DNA of 30,600 bases, taken from the IMG/VR virus record IMGVR_UViG_3300042479_000213, positions 1-30,600 of that record; one strand, written 5' to 3'. This DNA is from a virus. The notes beneath the pieces are model-generated. The model did not search any database. It saw nothing but the letters and a program-made list of their open reading frames with translations, and was not told the DNA's origin. This document shows, piece after piece, positions 2,628 to 22,677 of the stretch (its first letter is position 1; each line of letters begins with the position of its first letter). The position numbers and the translations under genes are program-made.

Positions 2628-3139
2628 AGGTGCCCTGTTATCTGCAAGGTATAACGATCTTCAAGTCCAATGTTGGCAGCCATGTGTGGTGCATCATACA
2701 CCCATTCTGACGTTTGCCCTGCTTTCCAATTGACATAAGGCACACCATCCACTTCAAGATAGTGCCCGGGCTTCCAGTCTTCTAACAACACCAATGCTCG
2801 ACGTATTGACTTCTCGCGACCTTGCAAATTAAACAGTTCAATATAACGTTTATACAGGTCTCTATGTACCGGCATCACTGTGCCTGTGCTCATGCGATAA
2901 AATGCCAGGCCAATGTCTTGCCAACCTTGTGCTCGGTACATATCTATAAATTTTGGTGCCCACTCTGGAAGTCTATGCCGCATGTCACATAGTTCGCCAC
3001 AAATTTTACTTTGGTATCCTTGACTTTGCCACAGTTCTAAACTTGCAGGATCATTGAAAGGCTCTTGAATGTAATCCAAGGTTTTAAATTCTTCGTCCCA
3101 GAATTTATACAACTGGTATTTCCGTGGATTGTATATCAT
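2624..3139 (-). CDS. 2-oxoglutarate/Fe(II)-dependent oxygenase-like protein
   Basis: 171 aa. The double-stranded beta-helix oxygenase facial triad is visible: His92-x-Asp94 in MPVHRDLYKRY, distal His152 in DAPHMAANIG, and Arg162 in EDRYTLQITG as the likely 2-oxoglutarate carboxylate ligand. The spacing fits the aspartyl/asparaginyl beta-hydroxylase-like branch common in T4-like phages. Such enzymes hydroxylate protein side chains or small molecules using oxygen and 2-oxoglutarate. The start overlaps the sugar-dehydrogenase stop (ATGA), and its own stop overlaps the amidinotransferase start. A joint pathway is therefore plausible, for example hydroxylation before or after amidino transfer, but the substrate is unknown. 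Confidence 0.72.
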   Translation of the reverse strand: MIYNPRKYQLYKFWDEEFKTLDYIQEPFNDPASLELWQSQGYQSKICGELCDMRHRLPEWAPKFIDMYRAQGWQDIGLAFYRMSTGTVMPVHRDLYKRYIELFNLQGREKSIRRALVLLEDWKPGHYLEVDGVPYVNWKAGQTSEWVYDAPHMAANIGLEDRYTLQITGHL

Positions 3140-4380
3140 TTTGTATTGCGTGTGTTTCCGTAGTGTATTACTTCAATGTTGGCTGTTGTTACTGGCATTG
3201 ATCGCCAAGGATCAACCACAACACTACCCTTAGGTATGTCGCAATAGAACCCATCCTTGACTGCGTTTCCAGTGTAGCCGTATGTTACCAGTCGATTGTG
3301 CGCCAGCAACAGCACACAAGGACCAATCAACTCTGACACTACTTCTGTTGGATCATCTGCTAGAGGATCAATATATCTAACATTAAATCCCATGTCTTTT
3401 ACAAAATGCCCAATCAGCGTTGAGTATGATCCGATGCAGTAGGCAACATCTGGCTTGTAGGCTTTGCCATGAATTACAATGCTCATGCCGCGTTCTTTTG
3501 CGGTGTCTGCTAAAAACTCAGCAAGATTTTTTGCTTGTATTTCACGAGCATGCATGATGGTATCAAACATGTCATAGCCAAGATCATATTCTTCAGCTAA
3601 CCAACGCAGGGCAATGTTGTCTCTGGGATGGCAAGCACCTGCATCGCCCATGCCTGCTGTCATGTATTTGGGACCCATGATACGCATGGTTGAACGAGCC
3701 AATGCATTTGTGACCACATCTACATTGATGTTGCCGATCTTCATGGCAAAGTCCTGTATCATGTTTGCCAGTCCAATCTTGGCCGAAATAAATGTGTTGT
3801 AAAAGATCTTAATTGCTTCGCATTCGTCCCAGGTGCCAATTTCGTAGCGTGGGTTGTTTTGCATAACTTGCCTGTAGATATCTACCAACTCTCCAGCCAG
3901 GGCGTTTGGATTGCCGTCTTCGGTGCCAATCATGATCATTTCTGGGTTGACCATATCCCATTTAACTGATCCCATGGCAATCAAGTAAGGGTTATACAAG
4001 AACTGATGCTGTTTATCCAGCAATGGTACAAAGTATTTGCGAGTGGTACCGGGCAATACTGTGGAAATCAACACAACTTTCTTAGGTGATCGGGCATACC
4101 GGTTGATGTTTGTAATGGCTTCCTTGACTGCATCATGTCCAAAATCTCGTGGAGTCAAATGACTGGATGGGGTGCTGCCATCATAGCCCTCAGCATGTGG
4201 GGTGGGCACAGCAACAAAGATCCACTCACTTTTGTTTATGGTTTCTTCAATCGTGCAAACTTGTACCAGGTCACTGGTTCTTGGGCTTATGTCGTAGCCT
4301 CGCACTGTGAACTTTTCTGCCAGCACTTCTGCACATTCCAGACCTAGTTTTCCAATGCCAATGAAGCCTATATTTTTCAT
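3136..4380 (-). CDS. UDP-glucose/GDP-mannose-type nucleotide-sugar dehydrogenase
   Basis: 414 aa from the ATG at 4380; the longer frame uses a TTG and would put 18 odd residues ahead of the Rossmann fold. The NAD-binding motif is GIGKLGLE at residues 8-15, followed by VAVPTP at 56-61 as in UDP-glucose 6-dehydrogenases. The conserved Lys191 and Asn195 lie in EAIKIFYNTF, and catalytic Cys250 lies in GACHPRD (family GGxCxPKD). A C-terminal domain follows, with GKAYKPDV near residue 322. These enzymes oxidise the C6 hydroxyl of a UDP- or GDP-sugar twice to the uronic acid. Length matches the family. There is no strong Shine-Dalgarno sequence before the ATG. It heads an operon with an oxygenase, an amidinotransferase and a fibre gene, suggesting a sugar-modification role. 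The exact nucleotide-sugar is not decidable here. Confidence 0.85.
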   Translation of the reverse strand: MKNIGFIGIGKLGLECAEVLAEKFTVRGYDISPRTSDLVQVCTIEETINKSEWIFVAVPTPHAEGYDGSTPSSHLTPRDFGHDAVKEAITNINRYARSPKKVVLISTVLPGTTRKYFVPLLDKQHQFLYNPYLIAMGSVKWDMVNPEMIMIGTEDGNPNALAGELVDIYRQVMQNNPRYEIGTWDECEAIKIFYNTFISAKIGLANMIQDFAMKIGNINVDVVTNALARSTMRIMGPKYMTAGMGDAGACHPRDNIALRWLAEEYDLGYDMFDTIMHAREIQAKNLAEFLADTAKERGMSIVIHGKAYKPDVAYCIGSYSTLIGHFVKDMGFNVRYIDPLADDPTEVVSELIGPCVLLLAHNRLVTYGYTGNAVKDGFYCDIPKGSVVVDPWRSMPVTTANIEVIHYGNTRNTK

Positions 4381-4573
4381 ACGATGATTATTCTTTCGGA
4401 TAGATTGTGTTCTTATGTTCTTTATACAGAACAAGTTTATATTGATTGTGTATTAATTTATCGGTTTACAGCACCATGCCCAAAAAAAGTAAACGGGTTT
4501 ATCTATGCCCACTGAATTTCATTGCTGTAGAGCAATAAATATTTGAATAATAATAACTATAAAGTGAGTAATA
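4381..4573. other. Divergent intergenic region, AT-rich
   Basis: This 193-base gap separates the minus-strand sugar operon from the plus-strand membrane-protein operon. It holds an AATAAATA late-type box facing right (4535-4542), a small inverted repeat ATTGCT-GTAG-AGCAAT just before it, and a GTTCT/AGAAC dyad near 4418-4433. A 20-codon plus-strand frame at 4476 has no ribosome binding site and is not called. No clear promoter for the minus operon was found. Confidence 0.5.
4535..4542 (+). promoter_or_regulatory. T4-like late promoter box
   Basis: AATAAATA, one mismatch from the T4 late box TATAAATA, 31 bases before the ATG at 4574. With T4 spacing the transcript would start near 4548 and give a leader of about 25 bases. 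Assigned by motif and position only. Confidence 0.4.
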
Positions 4574-7597: not shown

Positions 7598-8389
7598 ATG
7601 CAATTTACGTTTGATTTAATTTCTGACTTACATCTAGGCTCTACGGACACATTCAACTGGACTGGGTTGGCCACCAGCCCATTGTGCGTTGTTGCCGGTG
7701 ATATTTCCATGGATGTTGAAATAGTACGAGAAACCCTGGAGCATCTTGGCCAATGTTATCAAGCGGTGTTTTATATCGACGGCAACAACGAGCATAGATA
7801 TAGTCTAGATTCACTTTCGGGCAGTTATAACATACTAGAAGAAGCCGTTGCTGATATCAAAAATGTAGTGTTTTTGCAAAACAATTGTGTTGTCGTTAAT
7901 AATGTTGCATTCATTGGCACCAATGGTTGGTGGACATATGATTTAGATCCGAGCATTGATGATGAACAATGCAGATTATGGTATTGCGATATTATGGATG
8001 TCAGCATGCCTGTTACCAGTGCTATACACAGCATGGCGTATAACGATGTTGCTTACTTAAGAAACAGTATTAAAACCCTTCAAACACATCCGGATGTTAC
8101 GTCCATTGTTCTTGTCACGCACACTGTTCCAACTGTAGATTTAATCGATCATGATATGGAAATTACGTCAACTTATAAGTTTAATGTAATGGGAAATTCT
8201 CTAATGCAATTGGCACTGGATGGCGATACAGAAAACAAAGTTAAAACATGGTGCTTTGGACATTACCACAATCCCATTGATCAGCATCAAAATGGCATTA
8301 GATACGTGAACAATTGCCGAGGCAGAGTTGAAGATTCTACAGAATGGACTCCAACATATTACCCCAAGCGCATTGTTATTGATCTTTAA
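7598..8389 (+). CDS. Calcineurin-like metallophosphoesterase
   Basis: 263 aa. The binuclear-metal phosphoesterase motifs occur in order: D10-L-H12 (SDLHLG), G34-D35 (AGDISMD), GNNEH at 62-66, His175 (VLVTHTVPT) and G221-H-x-H224 (GHYHNP). The third motif is normally GNH[DE]; here the His position is Asn, with a His two residues later. The substrate could be a nucleic acid, nucleotide or phosphoprotein. The gene lies alone on the plus strand, 26 bases from a divergent gene, and its TAA overlaps the clpS stop by 4 bases. The ATG has no Shine-Dalgarno sequence and is preceded by TTTAAATA (7584-7591), so a leaderless or very short late transcript is possible. Confidence 0.88.
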   Translation: MQFTFDLISDLHLGSTDTFNWTGLATSPLCVVAGDISMDVEIVRETLEHLGQCYQAVFYIDGNNEHRYSLDSLSGSYNILEEAVADIKNVVFLQNNCVVVNNVAFIGTNGWWTYDLDPSIDDEQCRLWYCDIMDVSMPVTSAIHSMAYNDVAYLRNSIKTLQTHPDVTSIVLVTHTVPTVDLIDHDMEITSTYKFNVMGNSLMQLALDGDTENKVKTWCFGHYHNPIDQHQNGIRYVNNCRGRVEDSTEWTPTYYPKRIVIDL

Positions 8390-8691
8390 CGTAGGGTTTC
8401 AGGTTCTAGTTTAATCTGCAACGGATAATCGTTACTGCGAGCATCCAGTGTAACTTCAATGCCTTTTTGTTCGGCAATTTCATACGGCAAGATTGCAACA
8501 ACTGCAGACCCAGAATTATGAATATCTTCTGTAATTGTTACAGCAGTTTCTGCGGTGTATTCAAAGTGTTGTATCAAACTTTCAACTACAAAATCCACAG
8601 ATGTTTTGTTGTCATTCAAGTAGATAATTTTGAATAATGGTGGCTCACGCAATTCTACTTTTGATTTTGACACTGTATTTGTATCTGCCAT
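8386..8691 (-). CDS. clpS: ClpS, N-degron adaptor for Clp protease
   Basis: 101 aa from the ATG at 8691, which follows AAAGGATATAAA; the longer frame adds nine unsupported residues. ClpS binds proteins with N-terminal Phe, Leu, Trp or Tyr and hands them to ClpAP. The core matches ClpS: PPLFKIIYLNDNKTSVDFVV, then EDIHNSG, then YEIAEQK. By recall against E. coli ClpS, the pocket residues Asn34, Asp35, Thr38 and His66 correspond to Asn26, Asp27, Thr30 and His58, all present. The second Asp of the NDD triplet is Asn. It is the last gene of the proteostasis island, and its stop overlaps that of the convergent phosphoesterase. No clpA is seen here, so it would act with host ClpA or compete with host ClpS. 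Confidence 0.88.
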   Translation of the reverse strand: MADTNTVSKSKVELREPPLFKIIYLNDNKTSVDFVVESLIQHFEYTAETAVTITEDIHNSGSAVVAILPYEIAEQKGIEVTLDARSNDYPLQIKLEPETLR

Positions 8692-8707
8692 TTTATATCC
8701 TTTATTA

Positions 8708-8730
8708 TGTGGGGGCACCGCGCCCCCACA
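8708..8730 (-). other. Perfect 9-bp hairpin ahead of clpS
   Basis: Arms TGTGGGGGC and GCCCCCACA with a 5-base loop, directly before the AATAAAGGA ribosome site of clpS on the minus strand. No T-run follows, so it is not a classic terminator. It lies where a late transcript from 8732-8739 would begin, giving a structured 5' end. Confidence 0.7.
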
Positions 8731-8731
8731 G

Positions 8732-8739
8732 TATTTACT
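8732..8739 (-). promoter_or_regulatory. Late-type promoter box for clpS
   Basis: AGTAAATA, two mismatches from TATAAATA, in the same box-hairpin-ribosome-site order seen before hsp20 and the 14-aa ORF. With T4 spacing, the transcript starts in the hairpin's left arm. Confidence 0.4.
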
Positions 8740-8745
8740 ATTATA

Positions 8746-9204
8746 TTAAGAAGTGTAAGTGATTGCAATAGCCTTTGGCTTGGCTTCTTCGGGAACTTCA
8801 CGTCGTAAGTGAATGCTCAAGATACCAAGTTCAAGATGTGCATTGCTGATTTCCACATGATCTGCTAATTGGAATTCTCTGCGGAAACTACGCTCACTGA
8901 TGCCTTTGTGTAAAAATGTATAAGAGGCATCGGGTGATTCTACAGTTTCGGCACTGTGTTTGCCTTCAATGATCAAGAACTTCTTGTCCTTGGTAACTGA
9001 AAGATTGTCAGGGCCAAAGCCAGCCACAGCCACACTGATCATGTACTCGTCTTCATTCACTTGTACAATGTTATAAGGTGGATAGTTAGTGGTGGATTGT
9101 TGAGCACTCACACGCATGAGTTCATCAAACATGTTGTCAAATCCAATACCAAATTTGTGAATTGCAGGAATATCAAAACTGCGAAGTGTTAATGTTTTAG
9201 TCAT
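8746..9204 (-). CDS. hsp20: Small heat-shock protein Hsp20 (IbpA-like)
   Basis: 152 aa, the usual size. Small heat-shock proteins hold unfolding proteins as oligomers until ATP-dependent chaperones act. An N-arm (residues 1-45, FDIPAIHKFGIGFDNMFDEL) is followed by the alpha-crystallin domain (YNIVQVNEDEYMISVAVAGF through GILSIHLRREVPEE). The C-tail has IAI near residues 146-148, the I-x-I motif that docks neighbouring subunits. The ATG has AAAGGAGAAAACAA upstream. Hsp20 genes are common in T4-like cyanophages, but here it lies between groEL and clpS under its own late-type promoter and hairpin leader. Confidence 0.93.
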   Translation of the reverse strand: MTKTLTLRSFDIPAIHKFGIGFDNMFDELMRVSAQQSTTNYPPYNIVQVNEDEYMISVAVAGFGPDNLSVTKDKKFLIIEGKHSAETVESPDASYTFLHKGISERSFRREFQLADHVEISNAHLELGILSIHLRREVPEEAKPKAIAITYTS

Positions 9205-9238
9205 TTGTTTTCTCCTTTATTAAGCAAGTTGACTATAC

Positions 9239-9268
9239 TGTGTGGACCCGACCATCGGCATCCACACA
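9239..9268 (-). other. Hairpin in hsp20 leader
   Basis: An 8-bp outer stem (TGTGTGGA/TCCACACA) and a 4-bp inner stem (CCGA/TCGG) with a 3-base loop, lying between the groEL stop and the hsp20 ribosome site. It starts three bases after the promoter box on the minus strand. No T-run follows. Confidence 0.65.
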
Positions 9269-9270
9269 TG

Positions 9271-9278
9271 TATTTATT
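9271..9278 (-). promoter_or_regulatory. Late-type promoter box for hsp20
   Basis: AATAAATA facing hsp20, one mismatch from the T4 late box. The downstream layout (hairpin, then AACTTGCTTAATAAAGGAGAAAA) is shared with the leader at 11375-11436. Confidence 0.5.
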
Positions 9279-9304
9279 ATCGCAAGATCAAATTATCTTG
9301 TGAT

Positions 9305-10951
<1,647 letters not shown>

Positions 10952-11248
10952 TTATTCTCCTTTATTTACAATTGCCATTACATCGGTTTCGTACACGATG
11001 TTAAATTCTTCGTTGTCGACTTTGACTTTTTGCACAGCAGTCTTGCTGAACAGAACACGATCGCCAACTTTGACTACCATTGGCACCAGTTTACCATCTT
11101 CGGCAATACGGCCAAGGCCAACAGCAAGTACATCGCCTTGGCTGGGTTTTTCTGCTGCCGCATCTGGAATAATCAGACCACTGGCAGTTTTAGTTTCTGC
11201 CTCGATCAAACGCACAACAATGCGATCACGGATAGGGATTAATTTCAT
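10952..11248 (-). CDS. groS: GroES co-chaperonin
   Basis: 98 aa, the lid of the GroEL cage. The fold is recognisable from [20 protein letters not shown], the mobile loop ([20 protein letters not shown]) with its hydrophobic LII that docks on Gro[13 protein letters not shown], and the terminal [10 protein letters not shown]. Length and order match bacterial GroES, unlike T4 Gp31, which is longer and very divergent. The loop resembles betaproteobacterial GroES. The ATG has AAGGA upstream. Together with groEL, it is driven by a near-consensus sigma70 promoter and probably also by read-through from a late promoter. Confidence 0.97.
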
Positions 11249-11281
11249 AGTTTTTCCTTATAATAAATGAATCAATAGAAT

Positions 11282-11310
11282 AGTATAACATAAGCCGATG
11301 GCTATGTCAA
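11282..11310 (-). promoter_or_regulatory. Strong sigma70 promoter for groES-groEL
   Basis: TTGACA at 11310-11305, a 17-base spacer and TATACT at 11287-11282, reading toward groES. The start codon lies 34 bases beyond the -10. The -35 is perfect and the -10 has one mismatch. The spacer lacks the AATTCCC element of the promoter family at 16.9-22.6 kb. This would give host-polymerase expression early in infection. Confidence 0.8.
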
Positions 11311-11329
11311 CTGAACTGGGTTAAAAAGG

Positions 11330-11374
11330 TTATGTGCTGATGCTGTGATCAGGTGGTGACAGGTTTTTGATCAT
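11330..11374 (-). CDS. Possible 14-aa leader peptide upstream of groES
   Basis: The ATG at 11374 is preceded by AAAGGAGAAAAA, one of the best ribosome sites in the window, and the frame MIKNLSPPDHSIST ends at TAA 11332-11330. The 20 or so bases before the ATG repeat the hsp20 leader (AACTTGCTTA[A/T]TAAAGGAGAAAA). It may be a leader peptide, or the stub of a duplicated hsp20 5' end (compare MTKTLTL). No conserved function is recognised. Confidence 0.45.
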   Translation of the reverse strand: MIKNLSPPDHSIST

Positions 11375-11404
11375 TTTTTCTCCTTTAATAAGCAAGTTAA
11401 TGTG

Positions 11405-11423
11405 ATGTAGCCCCGAAGGCACT
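11405..11423 (-). other. UUCG-loop hairpin at the 5' end of the late transcript
   Basis: On the minus strand GTAG..GCC-TTCG-GG..CTAC forms a 4-bp outer and 2-bp inner stem with a UUCG tetraloop. With T4 late spacing from the box at 11429-11436, its first base would be the transcription start. Confidence 0.45.
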
Positions 11424-11428
11424 ACAAA

Positions 11429-11436
11429 GATATTTA
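11429..11436 (-). promoter_or_regulatory. T4 consensus late promoter upstream of the groE region
   Basis: Exact TATAAATA on the minus strand in the gap after clpX. It drives the 14-aa ORF and probably groES-groEL by read-through, as no terminator is visible before groES. Confidence 0.65.
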
Positions 11437-11456
11437 TACCGGGAAATCAGAAACCG

Positions 11457-12656
11457 TTAAGAATTTTGTTGTTCTAGGTTAATAGGTGTAGCGACTTGTG
11501 TTTTATCAATGGCAATTTTTAAAATATTGCGCGATTGATAATCTTTTAAGTTGTACATATGGGGAAGTAGTACTCGTTCAAGTTCTGTGTGCAATCCGCG
11601 AGCACCTGTTTTTGTGGTAATTGTACGTTCTGCAATCAAGTCTATACTGTCAGCATCAAAGTCCAGGGCCACACCATCTTGATTAAACAACCATCTGTAC
11701 TGACTGACCAAGTTGTTTTTTACTTCTGTTAAAATAGTAATAAGTTGAGATTTAGTTAGTTCTTCCAACTGTATAATAGATGGGAACCGTCCTACAAACT
11801 CTGGAATCATTCCGTAACGTACCAAATCGTCAGGTGTGATTGCTTCGGATACAGTTTCTTTGACAGTGCTGGCGCCAAACCCAATCGACGTGCCTTGTGT
11901 ACGTGCTTTGATCACTTTGTCTAGTCCAACAAATGCACCACCTACAATAAACAGTATGTTGGCAGTGTCAATGTCAATTGTTTCACTGCTGGATGTTTTG
12001 CGCACTCCTTGATTTGGCACTTTACAACGTGTGCCTTCGATCAGTTTGAGCAGTGCTTGTTGAACACCTTCGCCACTGACATCACGTGATACAGTACTGC
12101 TTTCACCTTTGCGAGCAATCTTATCTACTTCGTCAAGAAAGACGATTCCACGTTGTGTGCGTTCAACATCGTTGCCGCTGGCGTGATACAATCTAGCAAT
12201 CAAACTGTCAACATCGTCACCTACATAGCCTGCTTCTGTCAGCGTTGTGGCATCTGCAATGACAAAAGGCACATCCAGGTATTTGGCCACTGTGCGAGCC
12301 ATTAGTGTTTTACCTGTGCCAGTTGGGCCGGTCATCAAGATGTTGGCTTTTTGTATTTCGTTTTCGGGATCTGCATTGCCAATACGTTTGTAGTGATTGG
12401 CAATTGCTACACTTAACACAATTTTGGCAGTGGTCTGGCCAATTACATATTGGTCCAGATACCGATGTATTTCACGTGGATCTAACACTGACTCTGTTGT
12501 GGGTTTCTTGTCGTGTTCTTTTGACAACAACAGTCCGTGACAAAATTCCACGCACTCGTTGCATATACCAACATTGTGTCCTACAATTAGTTTGCCCACT
12601 TGATCTTTGTGCTTGTTACAAAAATTACAATGCGTGGGTGTTGTTTTAGCGATCAT
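11457..12656 (-). CDS. clpX: ClpX, AAA+ unfoldase of ClpXP protease
   Basis: 399 aa. ClpX unfolds tagged proteins and feeds them to ClpP. The N-terminal zinc domain has Cys10, Cys13, Cys32 and Cys35. The Walker A motif GPTGTGKT is at 110-117, pore-1 GYVG at 143-146, Walker B FLDEVD at 173-178 and sensor 2 GAR at 351-353. The IGF tripeptide (258-260) that docks into ClpP is present, so it should work with host ClpP; no ClpP is encoded here. The pore-entry RKH loop reads RKT at 219-221, which could change substrate choice. The C-terminus is slightly shorter than that of E. coli. It lies one base after the 512-aa membrane gene (12658-14196) and ahead of groES-groEL. A role in degrading host regulators or freeing assembly factors is inferred. 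Confidence 0.96.
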   Translation of the reverse strand: MIAKTTPTHCNFCNKHKDQVGKLIVGHNVGICNECVEFCHGLLLSKEHDKKPTTESVLDPREIHRYLDQYVIGQTTAKIVLSVAIANHYKRIGNADPENEIQKANILMTGPTGTGKTLMARTVAKYLDVPFVIADATTLTEAGYVGDDVDSLIARLYHASGNDVERTQRGIVFLDEVDKIARKGESSTVSRDVSGEGVQQALLKLIEGTRCKVPNQGVRKTSSSETIDIDTANILFIVGGAFVGLDKVIKARTQGTSIGFGASTVKETVSEAITPDDLVRYGMIPEFVGRFPSIIQLEELTKSQLITILTEVKNNLVSQYRWLFNQDGVALDFDADSIDLIAERTITTKTGARGLHTELERVLLPHMYNLKDYQSRNILKIAIDKTQVATPINLEQQNS

Positions 12657-12657
12657 T

Positions 12658-14196
12658 TTATTGTCCGGTCAACCGGCGTTCAATTTGTTCTTGTTCTGCT
12701 TCGCTTAACAGATCTGGATCGTATTCGCCCGAGTCAATTTTCACAATCAAGTGATCGATGTAGGCTTCATTGTATGCATAGCGATTGTTTAATTGCTTGT
12801 CTACCTCTATCCAATTATTTCCATTGAACTTATACAGTACACTTGGCAACCGATCAACACGCAAGAAAGTATCGCCTTTCTTTGGACTTAACGGAAATGA
12901 CGTTCCGAACCCAGTGGTGTTTTCTTTTGCGGGTGCGTTGTCAGGAGTTGGTCCTAGGTAGTATTTGGAAGACATCCAAGGTAGCGTATCAATCTTACCA
13001 ATTTCGTACAAACGTTGCTGAGCTTTTAATGTTTGTCCAGGATTTTCTTCTTTCCATCGACGTGCGGCTGTTTTGGCTTCAGCATCCATTCCGTCCAGGT
13101 GATCATCTTCTGTATCGGGTGTTTGAATATCGGTGGTAACGACATTCGTGTTGACTTCTTCTGTTTTAACAATCCTGTCAGTAGGAACTTCTGCCACGGG
13201 TAAATCTTCGTTTGCGTCATGTTGCTCTCCATTTGTGTTACAATCTTTGTTGGGACAAAATAGTCCAATGCCTGGTGCGTCTACTAGTGTGGTGCCACAT
13301 TTGGCACAGTCAATGGCAGTGTCTTCTGGAAACAAGGTGCTTTTAACAACCAGGTCTCCAGTTGGTAAATCTTTTACTAGGTCTTGTAGCTGTTCAATTT
13401 GTTCGTCACTGAGTGGGCCGTCATCTGCTGGGTACTTTTTTTCTCTGTTCCACTTTAGACTCTCAGTAGCAGCCAACAGCATCATGATGGCCAATGGATC
13501 AAACACTGTGACCAATATTATAATAACCCATCGAACTGCTTTTTCTAATAGATTAGTATCAGGGTTGTCACCATAGATAAGTGCGGCTATGTATTTGATA
13601 GGGCCAACTTCGGCTTCTACTTTGCGTACTTCAGCCGCGATGGGCGCACGTTGTTCGTTGAGTGCTGTGATTTTTTGTTGTGCTGTTGCAATGTCTGCAA
13701 GGAGGCGAGCACGTTCTTTCTGCTGGGTTCTGCGTATGCTGACAGCTTTGTCTGCCCCTTTTTCGTCCTGACTGCGACCCATAACTTGGTCCACAGCCTC
13801 ATCCATCTGTTTGAGAGCTTTGCGATTAGCATCTATGTTTTCTTTTTCGACCTTGATCTTTTCGTCATACAAAGCAATTTTGGCTTGTACATCACCGGAT
13901 ACCATGCCTTGGTCCATGTGTGCTTTTGAAAGGAATCCAAAGATGCCCATACTGGTGATGACCATGAGCATGAACACTGCTGGCACCAAGTAAGCCTTCA
14001 TTAACCAACGGCATTGGCGCCAGTATTCATGTAGCCACAGTGTGACTACAATTTTTGCCAGTTCCAGTATGCCGCCCATGATTATAATAGGCACCACAGC
14101 GGCAGCAAATATGGCAGCAAGACCGGCAATTGAATACCAGGCCGCAATAACCGACAGGCTCAATGCTACTGCTAATGTAATCAAACTTAGAAACAT
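12658..14196 (-). CDS. Large multi-pass membrane protein with coiled coil and zinc ribbon
   Basis: 512 aa from the ATG at 14196. A GTG at 14253 would overlap the upstream gene and lacks a ribosome site. Hydrophobic segments lie near residues 2-27, 30-50, 68-90 and 212-235 (VIIILVTVFDPLAIMMLLAA). Between the third and fourth is a long charged coiled coil (about 95-195). A likely zinc ribbon follows (CAKCGTTL then CPNKDC), then an acidic linker and a C-domain with WKEENPGQTLKAQQRLYEIG and PKKGDTFLRVDRLPSVLYKF. I recall similar proteins in T4-like marine phages, with no assigned function. A late-type box sits seven bases before the ATG. It might be a virion or infection-stage membrane protein; unproven. 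Confidence 0.75.
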   Translation of the reverse strand: MFLSLITLAVALSLSVIAAWYSIAGLAAIFAAAVVPIIIMGGILELAKIVVTLWLHEYWRQCRWLMKAYLVPAVFMLMVITSMGIFGFLSKAHMDQGMVSGDVQAKIALYDEKIKVEKENIDANRKALKQMDEAVDQVMGRSQDEKGADKAVSIRRTQQKERARLLADIATAQQKITALNEQRAPIAAEVRKVEAEVGPIKYIAALIYGDNPDTNLLEKAVRWVIIILVTVFDPLAIMMLLAATESLKWNREKKYPADDGPLSDEQIEQLQDLVKDLPTGDLVVKSTLFPEDTAIDCAKCGTTLVDAPGIGLFCPNKDCNTNGEQHDANEDLPVAEVPTDRIVKTEEVNTNVVTTDIQTPDTEDDHLDGMDAEAKTAARRWKEENPGQTLKAQQRLYEIGKIDTLPWMSSKYYLGPTPDNAPAKENTTGFGTSFPLSPKKGDTFLRVDRLPSVLYKFNGNNWIEVDKQLNNRYAYNEAYIDHLIVKIDSGEYDPDLLSEAEQEQIERRLTGQ

Positions 14197-14203
14197 AATG
14201 TAA

Positions 14204-14211
14204 TATTTATC
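14204..14211 (-). promoter_or_regulatory. Late-type promoter box before the membrane/coiled-coil gene
   Basis: GATAAATA on the minus strand, seven bases before the ATG at 14196. With T4 spacing the transcript would start about one base from the ATG, which means an almost leaderless message, consistent with the missing Shine-Dalgarno sequence. Confidence 0.45.
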
Positions 14212-14215
14212 TGTG

Positions 14216-14614
14216 TTAGTTCCATGTCCGGTGTACTTCGGCAATCCACTCACGACCGTCGTATTCGTCTATTTGCCAGTCTACAGAGGCAGGAATCTCT
14301 ACAACTTTTAATTCAGCAAAATTGCCATTGGCTCGTTCTCCCAATTCACGCACAACGGACACTAGTACCGGATCATCACGTGGAATATCACTGCTGTACC
14401 AGATTTTTCCATTGACCAGAATTAGCGGACCATATCGTTCAGTGTCGAATCGACTTTCACGATCTTGTGTTGTATAGTCAGTTAGCGATCGTTTTAGATA
14501 CAACAGTTCGGCTTCTTGACTTAACCCGTAGCCACCGTGGCATGAGTTGATGACCACATACCGAACGCCTTTGAGATAGCGTATGAGTTTTTCTTGTTCG
14601 GTTTCTTGTATCAT
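14216..14614 (-). CDS. Conserved phage hypothetical protein
   Basis: 132 aa. It contains YVVINSCHGGYGLSQEAELL near residues 19-38, then SSDIPRDDPVLVSVVRELG and ELKVVEIPASVDWQIDEYDG near the C-terminus. I recognise this arrangement as a protein often found in T4-like aquatic phages and some other phages, without a known role. The ATG overlaps the GNAT-like gene stop (ATGA). There are no membrane or enzyme motifs that I can name. Confidence 0.8.
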   Translation of the reverse strand: MIQETEQEKLIRYLKGVRYVVINSCHGGYGLSQEAELLYLKRSLTDYTTQDRESRFDTERYGPLILVNGKIWYSSDIPRDDPVLVSVVRELGERANGNFAELKVVEIPASVDWQIDEYDGREWIAEVHRTWN

Positions 14615-19648: not shown

Positions 19649-19678
19649 CTTGGGCTCCTTTTTAATTACTATACAAGT

Positions 19679-19707
19679 ATTATAGCAAATGGTGATTTAT
19701 TGGTCAA
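19679..19707 (-). promoter_or_regulatory. Sigma70 early promoter 2
   Basis: TTGACC, 17-base spacer, TATAAT, followed by the shared leader ACTTGTATAGTAATTAAAAA, whose next bases are GGAG. Drives 19376-19648. The spacer here is AATAAATCACCATTTGC, with an AAAT/ATTT dyad. Confidence 0.88.
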
Positions 19708-19716
19708 CCAAACTAA

Positions 19717-20169
19717 TTAACACTGGTCGATTCTGTGCTCTTCAATTTGGAAATTAACTTGTGAAATACATCTTCTTGTGGGGGGTTTGACATTGAGAAT
19801 AACATTGGCGAGACCCACACGTGCCTTTTCTTCCGAAGAATAAACTCCAAAAATATTGTCGTCTTCCATGGAGTTATTATCTAAGACTTTTATAACCCAG
19901 AATTTTTCTCCACCTTTTTTAGGTTTGTAAGGAGTATATTTGCCGTCAAATTCTAAATTAAACGGAACTATTTTCATTCTTGCTCTTGTTTGGTAACTCA
20001 TCATAGGATTATATGTTTCCTGCAACTTACAAGAAAGTTCTGCTCTTTCTTTCTTGGGATAAACAGCGTAAGTGTACCATTCTTCAAAAGGGTCTTTTGA
20101 AATTTCCTGTAACTCTACTACCCAAATGCCGTTTAACTGTATTTCTGCCGGTACTTTACTTGTTGCCAT
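19717..20169 (-). CDS. Hypothetical protein with internal repeat
   Basis: 150 aa with its own sigma70 promoter and AAAGGA upstream. Two similar beta-rich blocks can be seen: residues 14-44 (IWVVELQEIS, then YTYAVYPKKERAEL) and about 90-120 (FWVIKVLDNN, then IFGVYSSEEKARV). Each has an aromatic-Trp-Val strand, then [A/G]VY followed by a charged helix. This suggests an ancient duplication of a small alpha/beta unit. The C-tail has two Cys. No known family was recognised. Confidence 0.7.
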   Translation of the reverse strand: MATSKVPAEIQLNGIWVVELQEISKDPFEEWYTYAVYPKKERAELSCKLQETYNPMMSYQTRARMKIVPFNLEFDGKYTPYKPKKGGEKFWVIKVLDNNSMEDDNIFGVYSSEEKARVGLANVILNVKPPTRRCISQVNFQIEEHRIDQC

Positions 20170-20199
20170 CTCAGGTTCCTTTTTAATTACTATACAAGT

Positions 20200-20228
20200 A
20201 TTATAACAGTTTGGGAATTACAGGTCAA
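20200..20228 (-). promoter_or_regulatory. Sigma70 early promoter 3
   Basis: TTGACC, 17-base spacer TGTAATTCCCAAACTGT, TATAAT, with the conserved ACTTGTATAG leader. Drives 19717-20169. The -35 lies in the last codons of the preceding gene. Confidence 0.9.
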
Positions 20229-20694
20229 CTGAGTCCCAGGTCTTGCTCACTTCCATTTCGTCCACCAAGGCCTTCAATAACAATACCAACTTGCGGTAAT
20301 ACTTGGCGTCATTTTCATGTGTGTTACCCACATACCAGACACCGTCACGCATGATGTAGTACCACTCTGCCCCACAGTCGTTGGCACGATCTAAGAACGT
20401 TTCAAAGGTATGATCTGTTGCAAAATCTGTACCGTCTTCATCGCGGTCACGACCGTAAAACACAGTTACATTTTCCATAGGCGAACCAAAAGTATGGAAC
20501 TCACCATCTGGAAAATCAACATCGCGTTTCAAAGAAGACACATCGCCCAGTGACACCAGGTGGTTGGCCTTGGCACTGTCATAATAGTGCTCTTGCAATA
20601 TCACACCATTGTGTTCTAAATAACCGTCCCAGTGACAGTAGACTGATTTGCAAACGTCACCATGCATGACACCAATTCTTGAACGTGTACCCAT
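20218..20694 (-). CDS. Conserved phage protein (MGTRSRIGV family)
   Basis: 158 aa. It begins MGTRSRIGVMHGDVCKSVYC and continues HWDGYLEHNGVILQEHY, a signature I recognise from many phages and some bacteria, with no settled function. The middle has TVFYGRDRDEDGTDF, and the C-part has DCGAEWYYIMRDGVWYVGN followed by an acidic helix. The ATG lies one base after the stop of the 66-aa gene, so the two form one transcript from the promoter at 20927-20955. Confidence 0.88.
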   Translation of the reverse strand: MGTRSRIGVMHGDVCKSVYCHWDGYLEHNGVILQEHYYDSAKANHLVSLGDVSSLKRDVDFPDGEFHTFGSPMENVTVFYGRDRDEDGTDFATDHTFETFLDRANDCGAEWYYIMRDGVWYVGNTHENDAKYYRKLVLLLKALVDEMEVSKTWDSVDL

Positions 20695-20695
20695 T

Positions 20696-20896
20696 TTATG
20701 CTACCTCTTTCTGTTGTTGCAACCAAAAATATTCATTAATCAAATCTGAGGGGAAATCCTCATGGTACCAAAAATAGTACCGAGCAGATTTCAATCCTAG
20801 TGCCTTTTTTACAACATCAAATCCCAAGTCAAGAACATCATTCTCTGCTGTGATATTGGGATTGATTGCAAATACATCTTCGGCAAAACTTGACAT
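20696..20896 (-). CDS. Small hypothetical protein, 66 aa
   Basis: Begins MSSFAEDVFAINPNITAEND, with an aromatic C-half (ARYYFWYHEDFPSDLINEYF). AAAAGGAAAAAAAG precedes the ATG, and a sigma70 promoter lies 30 bases upstream. No membrane segment or known motif. It heads a two-gene unit with the MGTRSRIGV protein. Confidence 0.72.
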   Translation of the reverse strand: MSSFAEDVFAINPNITAENDVLDLGFDVVKKALGLKSARYYFWYHEDFPSDLINEYFWLQQQKEVA

Positions 20897-20926
20897 CTTT
20901 TTTTCCTTTTTTCTTACTATGTTTAC

Positions 20927-20955
20927 ATTATAGCAGTTTGGGAATTATCAGTCAA
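20927..20955 (-). promoter_or_regulatory. Sigma70 early promoter 4
   Basis: TTGACT, 17-base spacer GATAATTCCCAAACTGC, TATAAT. Drives 20696-20896 and 20218-20694. The leader is a variant (GTAAACATAGTAAG) of the common one. Confidence 0.88.
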
Positions 20956-21309
20956 TCAATCTAATCTGCTTCCAGCGTAGACCTGTGTCAGACCCAACTT
21001 GGTCTTCAGTACCTCTGCGTAGGCCTCAGCACCTGCTTCTAAAATGCTAATTGATTGGGTTGGGAAACCGCTGGGGTTCCACAGTTGGAGACTGCCAGTG
21101 TAGTCCTTACGGAAGCCCGCGGCCTGTAGCCACTTGCCCAACTTTGAGTTAGACCGTACGCCAAACACGTTGACCCAAGCAAAGCCACAAGCATCACGAT
21201 CGCCATGCTTGGCGTGGAATGCTTTGGCCGCTGAGCGGGCTTGGATACCTGCTTCGTTGGTTGCGTCTTGTACCAACTGCTCTGTGATCTGTGTTGCGAT
21301 TGCTGTCAT
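20956..21309 (-). CDS. Conserved phage hypothetical protein
   Basis: 117 aa from the ATG at 21309. The longest frame starts at a TTG at 21414 inside the upstream gene and would span the promoter, so it is rejected. Core features are DACGFAWVNVFGVRSNSKLG, WLQAAGFRKDYTGSLQLWNP and the end KLGLTQVYAGSRLD. I recall these from proteins shared by aquatic phages. AAAGGA lies upstream, after a family promoter. No function is known to me. Confidence 0.83.
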   Translation of the reverse strand: MTAIATQITEQLVQDATNEAGIQARSAAKAFHAKHGDRDACGFAWVNVFGVRSNSKLGKWLQAAGFRKDYTGSLQLWNPSGFPTQSISILEAGAEAYAEVLKTKLGLTQVYAGSRLD

Positions 21310-21339
21310 TTTGGAATCCTTTTTAGTTTCTATACAAGT

Positions 21340-21368
21340 ATTATAACAAATTGGGAATTTTGGGTCAA
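21340..21368 (-). promoter_or_regulatory. Sigma70 early promoter 5
   Basis: TTGACC, 17-base spacer CAAAATTCCCAATTTGT, TATAAT, with the ACTTGTATAG leader. Drives 20956-21309. The preceding gene's TGA (21367-21365) is inside the -35. Confidence 0.9.
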
Positions 21369-21655
21369 CCGTTTTTGCGGTCCATAATGTACTCAAAAAG
21401 CACAAATTTTGCACGATTTAACAGTTGACGCTGATCTTCAATGGTGTTAAAGTCCGGCTGTTCGTAGGCCATCATCTCTTGTGCGTCACTCATCATGCTG
21501 GCCACTACCATTGCGGGACCAGAGAATCGAAAAGTGCTGGACGATTCTACTGCTTCACGCATTTGAGCTTCGGTGGCGCCATACATACGAATTTCACGTT
21601 TTTCTTGCTCGTTTAAAGTAATCATTTCACCTAATGTATCGTATCTTAAACCCAT
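21365..21655 (-). CDS. Small conserved phage protein
   Basis: 96 aa from the ATG at 21655, which has AAGGAG seven bases upstream; a TTG two codons earlier is too close to it. The sequence has MGLRYDTLGEMITLNEQEKR, then STFRFSGPAMVVASMMSDAQ, and ends with a helix (NRAKFVLFEYIMDRKNG). The FRFSGP...MSDAQE pattern is familiar from small phage proteins without a role. Monocistronic under its own promoter. Confidence 0.78.
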   Translation of the reverse strand: MGLRYDTLGEMITLNEQEKREIRMYGATEAQMREAVESSSTFRFSGPAMVVASMMSDAQEMMAYEQPDFNTIEDQRQLLNRAKFVLFEYIMDRKNG

Positions 21656-21686
21656 TTTCAAACTCCTTTTTGTTAAACTATGCTAT

Positions 21687-21715
21687 ATTATAGCAAATTG
21701 GGAATTTTCGGTCAA
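21687..21715 (-). promoter_or_regulatory. Sigma70 early promoter 6
   Basis: TTGACC, 17-base spacer GAAAATTCCCAATTTGC, TATAAT. Drives 21365-21655. The TGA of the 33-aa gene (21714-21712) is embedded in the -35. Confidence 0.9.
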
Positions 21716-21813
21716 CCACGCAACCGCTTCATTAACAACTGATTTAGGGTTGGTTTGAGTCCCAACTTCTTGCGTAAGAGTTCACCCAGGGTTGGTTTTT
21801 TGGTTTTTTTCAT
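21712..21813 (-). CDS. Very small basic protein, 33 aa
   Basis: The ATG at 21813 follows AAAAAAGGAAAAAAAG, 30 bases after a family promoter. The frame MKKTKKPTLGELLRKKLGLK, then PTLNQLLMKRLRG, ends at TGA. It is highly basic (Lys/Arg at about a third of positions) and holds two similar PTLxxLL units (PTLGELLRKKLG and PTLNQLLMKRLR), an internal duplication. A nucleic-acid or host-protein binding peptide is plausible. Its own promoter and ribosome site make expression likely despite its size. Confidence 0.72.
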   Translation of the reverse strand: MKKTKKPTLGELLRKKLGLKPTLNQLLMKRLRG

Positions 21814-21843
21814 CTTTTTTTCCTTTTTTGTTTTCATACTCGT

Positions 21844-21872
21844 ATTATAGCAAATGGGAAATATTCGGTCAA
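21844..21872 (-). promoter_or_regulatory. Sigma70 early promoter 7
   Basis: TTGACC, 17-base spacer GAATATTTCCCATTTGC, TATAAT. Drives the 33-aa gene. The preceding gene's TGA (21871-21869) lies in the -35. Confidence 0.88.
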
Positions 21873-22102
21873 CCAAATGCTTTTACCAGCCCAGAAAGCC
21901 CAATTATTACACTTACAAGATTCACAAACATCTGTGGTTTATTTGCAACACGCACAGTCCAGGCTAAAAACAGTAAGGTTCCTATAAAAAATGTAAGGAT
22001 ATTGTAAGGATAAGCCTCAGGACCCACAGCGTTTAAACTGTGACCTGCTACTATAAAAATAGCCCCGGCCCACTGTAGTATTTCGTTTGTATCTAATTTC
22101 AT
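21869..22102 (-). CDS. Small three-helix membrane protein, possibly leaderless
   Basis: 77 aa. Hydrophobic segments lie near residues 10-24 (WAGAIFIVAGHSLNAV), 33-50 (YNILTFFIGTLLFLAWTV) and 58-74 (MFVNLVSVIIGLSGLV). The ATG at 22102 is only six bases after the TATAAT of its promoter, so transcription would start at about the A of the ATG, and the AAGGT before it may not be in the RNA. The next Met is far downstream and would remove two membrane segments. Role unknown; small early membrane proteins of T-even-type phages often act in exclusion, which is only an analogy. Confidence 0.7.
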   Translation of the reverse strand: MKLDTNEILQWAGAIFIVAGHSLNAVGPEAYPYNILTFFIGTLLFLAWTVRVANKPQMFVNLVSVIIGLSGLVKAFG

Positions 22103-22108
22103 ACCTTA

Positions 22109-22137
22109 ATTATAGCAGTTTGGGAATTATTGGTCAA
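22109..22137 (-). promoter_or_regulatory. Sigma70 early promoter 8
   Basis: TTGACC, 17-base spacer AATAATTCCCAAACTGC, TATAAT. Drives 21869-22102. The usual 30-base leader is missing: the ATG follows six bases after the -10. Confidence 0.88.
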
Positions 22138-22143
22138 CCAAAA

Positions 22144-22545
22144 TCACAGTTCAATAGCCCTGCGAAACACAATTTCTTGCCGGGCAAAAGCGTCTAATTC
22201 CCAGGGCTGTTGCAAATATGCCACATTACGTCCGTAGTATTTGCCGTTCCATTTTTTGCCTTTGGGCATGATTTTTAGGATGCCTCGTGCCATTTGTCGC
22301 ACATGCACCAACTCGTGTGCCAGGGTCACGCCCAGTGCATACAAATTTCTAGTGGGTTTTAATACCACCAAGTAAGTGTCAAGTCCTGTCAACGGCACAG
22401 TGGTGCCCATTTCCTCTAAATCTGAGTCCACTTTGATCATGAGCAATCGGCGATTTTTCACAAGCCCTAACTGGGCTAACATACTAGGAACCAGTGCTTC
22501 AATATACTGTTTGGTCTTTGGGCCCGCTTCAACATGCAATTCCAT
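22144..22545 (-). CDS. Zinc-metallopeptidase-like protein (HExxH)
   Basis: 133 aa. HELVH at residues 77-81 gives the zinc-binding His pair and catalytic Glu, set in TLAHELVHVRQMARG. Glu116 in QQPWELDAFARQE is a candidate third ligand, as in SprT-like and other gluzincin-type proteins. The sequence GKKWNGKYYGRN between the motifs recalls SprT-like families. It may be a small protease, or a nucleic-acid-associated peptidase like SprT/Spartan; no zinc ribbon is present. AAAAAAAGG precedes the ATG, and a family promoter lies upstream. It is the first gene of the minus-strand early-type block. Confidence 0.75.
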   Translation of the reverse strand: MELHVEAGPKTKQYIEALVPSMLAQLGLVKNRRLLMIKVDSDLEEMGTTVPLTGLDTYLVVLKPTRNLYALGVTLAHELVHVRQMARGILKIMPKGKKWNGKYYGRNVAYLQQPWELDAFARQEIVFRRAIEL

Positions 22546-22572
22546 ATGTGCCTTTTTTTACTATATGCCCAA

Positions 22573-22601
22573 ATTATAACAAAATACCAATTTTGTGTCA
22601 A
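22573..22601 (-). promoter_or_regulatory. Sigma70 early promoter 9
   Basis: TTGACA, 17-base spacer CAAAATTGGTATTTTGT, TATAAT. The spacer contains a near-perfect dyad CAAAAT-TGGT-ATTTTG. Drives 22144-22545. Confidence 0.85.
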
Positions 22602-22677
22602 CCGATGCTGAGGCTGTGGCGTTATATATGTGTAGCCAGGAAAGTCCGGGTCTACAGTTTCTAATCAAGGAGATACC

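Follow-up and report, generated by a model that had tools for sequence, protein, structure and literature searches.

The window analysed here, a 30.6-kb stretch of DNA, is a virus record from IMG/VR (IMGVR_UViG_3300042479_000213). Between positions 8386 and 12656, five intact open reading frames (ORFs), all on the minus strand, form a run of protein quality-control genes, clpX-groES-groEL-hsp20-clpS. Two putative leaders within this run resemble the ROSE-type RNA thermometers found before bacterial small heat-shock genes. The features of the locus, in the direction of transcription, are as follows (aa, amino acids; R1, a leader model described below):

12658 to 14253, minus strand: gene for a membrane and coiled-coil protein of 531 aa, 1 nt upstream of clpX
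11457 to 12656, minus strand: clpX, AAA+ unfoldase of 399 aa with a zinc-binding domain and a ClpP-docking IGF loop
11366 to 11432, minus strand: ROSE-like leader after clpX, with a hairpin, the anti-Shine-Dalgarno motif CTTGC and AGGAG (R1 54.8 bits, E 1.2e-9)
10952 to 11248, minus strand: groES, co-chaperonin of 98 aa
9305 to 10948, minus strand: groEL, chaperonin of 547 aa, 68% identical to Escherichia coli GroEL
9196 to 9272, minus strand: ROSE-like leader of hsp20 (R1 80.9 bits, this leader being part of the R1 training set)
8746 to 9204, minus strand: hsp20, small heat-shock protein of 152 aa, with IbpA as top NCBIfam match, below its cut-off
8386 to 8691, minus strand: clpS, N-degron adaptor of 101 aa from the likelier ATG; a longer ORF starts at 8718

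An earlier note on this DNA had described five quality-control genes lying together on one strand with intact hallmarks, a description borne out by the ORFs, the Pfam matches and the conserved residues. Pfam E-values were 1.5e-20 for ClpS (score 73.2, cut-off 23), 8.2e-15 for HSP20, 1.3e-73 for Cpn60, 1.9e-29 for Cpn10, and 1.3e-31 (AAA_2) and 2.9e-13 (zf-C4_ClpX) for ClpX; all five ORFs were also matched under the same names in PHROGs. Curated NCBIfam cut-offs were exceeded by ClpX (509.5 versus 359 bits, equivalog) and GroEL (TIGR02348, 814 versus 582), barely exceeded by GroES (NF001527, 120.1 versus 120), and not reached by ClpS (best 70.9 versus 149) or Hsp20, for which the ClpS and IbpA models, respectively, were nevertheless the top matches. 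ClpX retains the zinc cysteines, the Walker motifs, the GYVG pore loop and the IGF loop, and the Gly-Phe of the docking loop was unchanged in 12 of 12 sequences. Residues N35, D36, T39 and H67 of ClpS, which we take to form the N-degron pocket, were invariant in all 23 aligned sequences. In GroEL, the ATPase residues D52, D87 and D398 and nine of the ten listed apical residues match those of E. coli; the inter-ring residues E434 and E461 are altered. For clpS, the ATG at 8691 is the more likely start because it is preceded by a plausible ribosome-binding site. The five genes look to be under purifying selection, with dN/dS ratios of 0.075-0.237 against two relatives (74-96% amino-acid identity) that are only rough, because dS was at or above about 1 in several comparisons. 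The window also encodes NrdA, NrdB, glutaredoxin, PAAR and DNA ligase, a phage context, and no near-identical DNA was found in the phage collection for its bases 1-25000.

To describe the locus in other viruses, IMG/VR was scanned with GroEL, ClpS, ClpX and DnaK; each scan ended at 600 candidates, and the 80 loci kept per query together fell into 226 dereplicated groups, so selected that the frequencies given below are not population values. In 10 of these groups of viral contigs, the five genes stand together on a single strand and span 4.1-6.0 kb. The phage proteostasis island proposed in the earlier note is thus real and conserved, and its genes are not set among unrelated neighbours from one relative to the next. 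One separate record (L005) is almost a copy of the window, with a 99% identical GroEL and a dS of 0.07-0.14 over the six genes compared. Among the 174 clpS-bearing groups, hsp20 was present in all, and within 300 bp of clpS in 169; within the DNA examined around each locus, the gene for the membrane protein was present in 157, bS21 in 140, clpX in 112, dnaK in 67 and groEL in 25. The usual order was membrane protein-clpX-bS21-(groESL, dnaK)-hsp20-clpS. The comparison thus gives a core of membrane protein-clpX-bS21-hsp20-clpS, into which groESL, dnaK or both are inserted ahead of hsp20. Judged by its gene content, the window locus is a conserved proteostasis locus of large tailed phages related to PA5oct, in the form that carries groESL. 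The groESL pair marks a minority variant, and its arrangement differs among relatives. In L081, the order was clpX-dnaK-groES-groEL-hsp20-clpS. G026, a close relative of the window (77-91% nucleotide identity across the main aligned blocks), carries groES (L166:10640-11090), with no R1 site before it, and lacks groEL on its entire 42-kb contig; G001 has a groES-groEL pair that is preceded by a leader of its own and is over 200 kb distant from hsp20. Given the groES-only relative and the variable cassettes, the chaperone cassettes seem to come and go at one place.

The leaders of the relatives had in common a hairpin (hairpin I) followed by CTTGCTT, AAGGAG and the start codon. In the dereplicated loci, the motif CTTGC..AGGAG was found upstream of hsp20 (135 of 179), dnaK (38 of 67), groES (10 of 27) and groEL (2 of 26), and hardly or not at all upstream of the membrane protein gene (0 of 153), clpX (0 of 112), clpS (0 of 176) or S21 (1 of 144). 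Shuffled controls gave 0.0-0.6 occurrences, and 0.0 for hsp20. Hairpin I covaried: its inner five pairs could form in 90, 90, 90, 90 and 89 of 90 leaders, against means of 36-68 after shuffling, although these counts are not independent because many of the leaders are related. Hairpin I was thus present in nearly all of them, and its structure was conserved as expected of a ROSE-like leader.

A model, R1, was built from 48 phage hsp20 leaders and used to score at most 133 candidates per phage record and 137 per bacterial genome, a scope in which a missing site is not evidence of absence. Of 40 phage records, 38 had R1 sites, one to three each and 74 in total: 37 before hsp20, 21 before a small phasin-like gene, 6 before dnaK, 5 before groES, 4 before groES behind an ORF of 7-14 codons, and 1 that the script left unassigned and that appeared phasin-like by eye. 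All 74 sites therefore precede chaperone-type or phasin-like genes, one of them as judged by eye. In 36 bacterial genomes, R1 gave four matches of 34.7-37.2 bits, in three of four Pseudomonas and one of 32 others (Sheuella); each lies before a small heat-shock gene whose top NCBIfam match is IbpA (119-150 bits versus a cut-off of 212). The flanks of 80 bacterial groESL loci, used as a negative control, gave one weak match (E 0.38). Hsp20, groES, dnaK and the phasin-like gene were thus found to share one putative two-part 5' leader.

The label "phasin-like" is based on a Phasin_2 match of one protein (E 0.0066, below the cut-off); six of the eight phasin-type leaders inspected carried CTCGC or CTTGC. 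In three relatives (G027, G003 and G014), this small gene (L344:6234-6578 and its kin) lies 2-3 kb before a divergent clpP gene, ClpP2, and has its own ROSE-like leader, mostly of the CTCGC form. A pairing of GTCA with the start-codon context ATGAC was also considered (ATGAC in 67 of 67 leaders with GTCA and 16 of 23 without; p 3e-5); it was not used, as it may reflect shared ancestry.

The closest known counterpart of these leaders is the short ROSE-like thermometer of Pseudomonas ibpA (PMC3669281; RF02523). According to the available passages of that study, the ibpA leaders of P. putida and P. aeruginosa are experimentally proven RNA thermometers with two hairpins, the second of which melts. 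They resemble the phage leaders in the two-part architecture, the anti-Shine-Dalgarno sequence U(U/C)GCU, the GAUGCC...GGGUC hairpin and the small heat-shock gene downstream. The phage leaders differ in that they also precede groES, dnaK and the phasin-like gene, and in that their Rfam scores lie below the cut-off. A search of the whole window gave a match to Rfam ROSE_3 (RF02523), a heat-shock thermoregulator, on the minus strand at 9199-9267 (31.8 bits, E 0.0056); in searches of 121 bases, its E-values were 7.4e-6 for a groES leader and 0.0025 for a phasin leader. In primary sequence and predicted structure, the phage leaders are thus alike to IbpA-type leaders, a kind proven to act as ROSE-type thermometers, and we infer that they act as thermometers in the phage as well.

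The proteolytic partners of ClpX and ClpS were searched for in 24 long locus-bearing contigs, picked partly for GroEL or DnaK (GroEL, present in 9 of them, is not a frequency because of this selection). A ClpP-family match was found in 23 of the 24 contigs, with more than 200 bits in 20 and two matches in 11. In a second set, ClpP was found in 18 of 32 records (15 above 200 bits); the 14 records without it are all contigs of at most 58.6 kb. A Clp_N (ClpA-type) ATPase was present in 16 of the 24 long contigs and 7 of 15 further records, and DnaJ in the same 16 long contigs as Clp_N. Seven ClpA-like proteins (from 6 of the 16 Clp_N contigs and from PA5oct, an unrelated PA5oct ORF of 1197 aa being excluded) shared 39-43% identity with E. 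coli ClpA, and the IGF loop was present in all seven; the one scanned with NCBIfam scored 797, under the ClpA cut-off of 993, with ClpB lower at 649. With genes for ClpP, a ClpA-type ATPase and DnaJ at other places in the genomes of relatives, both ClpXP and ClpAP-ClpS can, as far as the sequences tell, be complete inside the phage. In the 16 records with both (G001-G011, G013, G014, G018, G020 and G024), the matches to DnaJ and Clp_N are 0.6-1.2 kb apart.

We consider a phage heat-shock regulon standing beside a phage-owned Clp system to be the best reading of these data, and a likely one. In such a regulon, CUUGCUU in the phage mRNA would pair with the AAGGAG ribosome-binding site, and warming would loosen this second hairpin and allow more translation of Hsp20, GroES/GroEL, DnaK and the phasin-like protein. 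These proteins would hold and refold the heavy load of phage proteins late in infection, and ClpXP and ClpAP-ClpS, outside thermometer control, would clear host and phage proteins that are damaged or unwanted. With rather more reserve, we lean towards a single origin for the leaders: one RNA thermometer, probably acquired from a proteobacterial host along with an ibpA-like gene, would have been copied within phage genomes to positions before hsp20, groESL, dnaK and the phasin-like gene, so that temperature co-controls translation of the folding arm and leaves the ClpXP/ClpAPS arm outside. The locus itself is real, recurrent and built of known parts; the putative thermometer regulon is its most surprising element. 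Phages are usually thought to borrow host chaperones and proteases, and this lineage seems to carry a nearly complete quality-control system with a temperature-sensing RNA on its folding genes. The question of why giant phages carry chaperones would thereby become testable, in terms of heat, late-stage protein load or slow hosts.

Several observations count against a heat-shock regulon with its own Clp system. The ROSE_3 match in the window was below the curated cut-off (31.8 versus 43), 18 other loci gave no ROSE match at the Rfam cut-off, and the leaders of PA5oct and Phosso and one dnaK leader gave none even at E 1. The CTTGC..AGGAG motif was missing from 44 of the 179 hsp20 leaders. All 10 base pairs of R1 lie in hairpin I, and TGCC, GGG, CTTGC and AGGAG are conserved by construction in this model because the training pattern required them; no R1 site was found in two of the 40 phage records, G010 (found via dnaK) and Vibrio phage 2.275.O. 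The opening on warming predicted with ViennaRNA was mild: the ribosome-binding site was open at 0.36 at 5 °C and 0.46 at 50 °C across 90 leaders, compared with 0.46 and 0.52 in up to 60 shuffled leaders, and 0.33 and 0.67 in the window leader. On the proteolytic side, the RKH loop of ClpX reads RKT, and the window, a 30.6-kb fragment, contains neither ClpP nor ClpA, both being deduced from relatives. Among the 24 long contigs, G023 had no ClpP, G012 had one weak match with an internal stop, and G021 and G022 had a single weak match each. GrpE was found in none of the 24, and DnaK would therefore still need a host partner.

The leader might instead be a general 5' mRNA stabiliser or a late-gene translation element with no thermometer function. 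The weak predicted melting fits this alternative, as does the hairpin before clpS, which has no anti-Shine-Dalgarno motif. Moreover, the octamer TATAAATA, which resembles a T4 late promoter, occurred as an exact match upstream of 47 of 179 hsp20 genes and 22 of 67 dnaK genes (2.0 expected from shuffles in each case). The complete element is, however, confined to chaperone-type and phasin-like genes at all of the R1 sites, and its architecture and motif are the same as in the experimentally proven ibpA thermometers; we therefore regard a general stabiliser or late-gene translation element as unlikely.

The putative phage-owned Clp system bears on the proposal of the earlier note that phage ClpX and ClpS redirect the ClpP and ClpAP of the host, with GroE and Hsp20 shielding phage proteins. 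ClpX does retain its ClpP-docking loop and ClpS its N-degron pocket, the window itself has neither protease partner, and among the long contigs, 4 of 24 had no strong ClpP and 8 of 24 no Clp_N (mostly contigs of at most 112 kb); mixed phage-host complexes are also possible. Most long relatives nonetheless encode ClpP, ClpA and DnaJ of their own, and the nearest relatives with sufficient contig span (G026, G027 and G015) have two ClpP-family genes each. Host steering is thus unsupported as the principal explanation, and we consider it improbable.

It is more doubtful still that the ClpP-like proteins are capsid maturation proteases and that the Clp genes serve head assembly. ClpP is annotated in this way in PA5oct (NC_071039) and Paride (OR805295), a ClpP-related head protease family exists (NF045542, which gave the G027 ClpP a score of 95.4 against a cut-off of 120), and no T4-type prohead protease was found in 15 of 29 records, four of which exceed 200 kb. 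The ClpP of G027, however, exceeded the cut-off of the ClpP model PRK00277 (309 versus 249), and ClpP1 shared 53-64% identity with its E. coli counterpart in 10 sequences and 46% in PA5oct, with the catalytic Ser and His retained in all 11. A distinct T4-type prohead protease was present in the other 14 of the 29 records, PA5oct included, more than 95 kb from all ClpP matches, and ClpP1 therefore need not be the head protease. A role of ClpP1 as head protease was rejected on the PRK00277 score and the separate prohead protease, a rejection that covers ClpP1 and not the divergent ClpP2. In the aligned part, the five ClpP2 sequences compared had 26-33% identity to E. coli ClpP; at L344:8614-9183 and L339:5163-5741 (26-27%), ClpP2 lies beside a 530-aa gene on the opposite strand.

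In a midpoint-rooted GroEL tree, 62 of 69 phage GroELs, including all 25 from island loci, formed one clade (SH-aLRT 91) apart from 80 bacterial sequences; the other 7 phage GroELs fell outside it. Inside the clade, the window GroEL groups with 10 other phage sequences, and all but one of the 11 come from island loci (support 98). The island label required six changes on the tree, and island GroELs are thus not one clade. The cassette looks to have been long resident in phages, and the hosts are probably Pseudomonadota. A chimeric assembly, or recently captured host DNA, which the earlier note had named among the findings that would speak against its proposal, is hardly credible and was rejected: the window is a single contig, and the nearest cellular GroELs among the matches listed are mostly from Burkholderiales (best Polynucleobacter, 75%), but the gene order recurs in 10 dereplicated groups, near-copy L005 included, and the phage GroELs cluster apart from the bacterial ones.

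Among cultivated phages, PA5oct and Paride (Arenbergviridae, Wroclawvirus) resemble the window in having one run of clpX, bS21, hsp20 and clpS. They have ClpP, ClpA and FtsH nearby and a single R1 leader, before hsp20. Unlike in the window, additional genes separate bS21 from hsp20, and neither groEL nor the membrane protein was found in the genome pieces examined. The order in PA5oct was NrdA-NrdB-PAAR ... clpX-bS21 ... hsp20-clpS ... FtsH-ligase, the same general order as in the window except for the ligase and the phosphoesterase, and NrdA, NrdB, ligase, clpX, hsp20 and clpS were common to both (27-43% identity). In Paride, identity to the E. coli proteins was 44.5% for ClpX, 37.8% for ClpS, 46.3% for ClpP and 43.5% for ClpA, and the FtsH-like protein has HEAGH and a Walker A motif. 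The annotation of ClpP as a head maturation protease in both phages is likely a misannotation, as are those of ClpX as a porphyrin-biosynthesis product in PA5oct (L002) and as hypothetical in Paride (L520). In Sinorhizobium phage Phosso, the genes of a small heat-shock protein, thymidine kinase and ClpS lie about 15 kb beyond clpX. Paride, which is reported to kill dormant P. aeruginosa (PMC10761892, available passages), carries the core without groEL, so that the idea is testable in a cultivated phage.

Phage-encoded chaperone parts such as T4 Gp31 and the phage EL chaperonin are established, and lambda cIII is a phage RNA thermometer. To our knowledge, Gp31, the EL chaperonin and the RB43 J-domain protein are lone genes, with no locus that has its own protease system. 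The RB43 protein is cited as a phage-encoded chaperone part in the available passages of a study on moraphages (PMC12619734), large T4-like aquatic phages with ClpA, DnaK, DnaJ and HSP20; these differ from the phages described here in that their hosts are mostly predicted to be Bacteroidota and their DnaK is mostly of flavobacterial origin. The terms "groel", "thermometer" and "PA5oct" are absent from the main text of that paper. In the huge phages encoding bS21, Hsp20 (n = 127) and CLP (n = 50 and 47) families lie within 10 genes of bS21 among 900 published phages, and Chen et al. speak of a "proteostasis network" (PMC9723584). The passages available from that study give neighbour counts, with no clpS pairing and no RNA element, and "groel" is absent from its main text. 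FtsH has been reported in MIJ3 (PMC6892783, available passages). The terms "clp", "chaperon" and "heat shock" are absent from the main texts on Paride (PMC10761892), huge phages (PMC7162821) and PA5oct (PMC6950013). In the literature as far as it was accessible, we found no report of the groESL form of the locus, of a joint chaperone-Clp locus or of ROSE-type leaders in phages. The suggestion in the earlier note that such a phage locus might be undescribed is therefore partly right: it may stand for the groESL form; it does not hold for the parts, which appear in PMC9723584, in the PA5oct record (annotated with clpX, hsp20 and clpS) and in PMC12619734.

Further features were observed in and around the locus:

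11431 to 11438, minus strand: T4-late-promoter-like octamer TATAAATA, directly after clpX, the sole exact match in the window, where one is expected by chance
11330 to 11374, minus strand: leader ORF of 14 codons, behind the ROSE-like element at 11366 to 11432
11282 to 11310, minus strand: sigma-70-like promoter TTGACA-17-TATACT before groES (11 of 12 matches)
8740 to 8768, minus strand: sigma-70-like site TTGCAA-17-TATAAT before clpS (10 of 12 matches)
8708 to 8730, minus strand: 9-bp hairpin in the clpS leader, without an anti-Shine-Dalgarno motif
7598 to 8389, plus strand: metallophosphoesterase gene, convergent with clpS, the far boundary of the island

Because the ROSE-like element after clpX precedes the 14-codon ORF and the sigma-70-like promoter, groESL of the window may be partly uncoupled from heat. 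Counterparts of this ORF had 7-11 codons in the five relatives read, 34 in L011 and 14 in the near-copy L005. A regional sigma-70 scan was not clearly above shuffles (16 sites versus a mean of 12.9, sd 4.6); across relatives, sigma-70-like sites were found before clpS in 97 of 176 loci (2.5 in shuffles). A plausible arrangement, by analogy with T4 late promoters, is a late-type signal to which early transcription is optionally added.

The 531-aa membrane protein has a conserved N-terminal part of 260 residues and a variable C-terminus. Its structure was predicted with a pLDDT of 74.9 and a pTM of 0.37, and a search of PDB structures gave no match at E ≤ 0.001. A UDP-glucose-dehydrogenase-like gene (window positions 3136-4434) and its neighbours (1710-2627 and 440-1735) recur near the locus in several relatives. 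Finally, a 46-nt repeat was observed at positions 19667-22606, in eight spaced copies that are 61-100% alike. The first copy reads TTGACC-17-TATAAT on the reverse strand, and these repeats are therefore likely early promoters before small genes.

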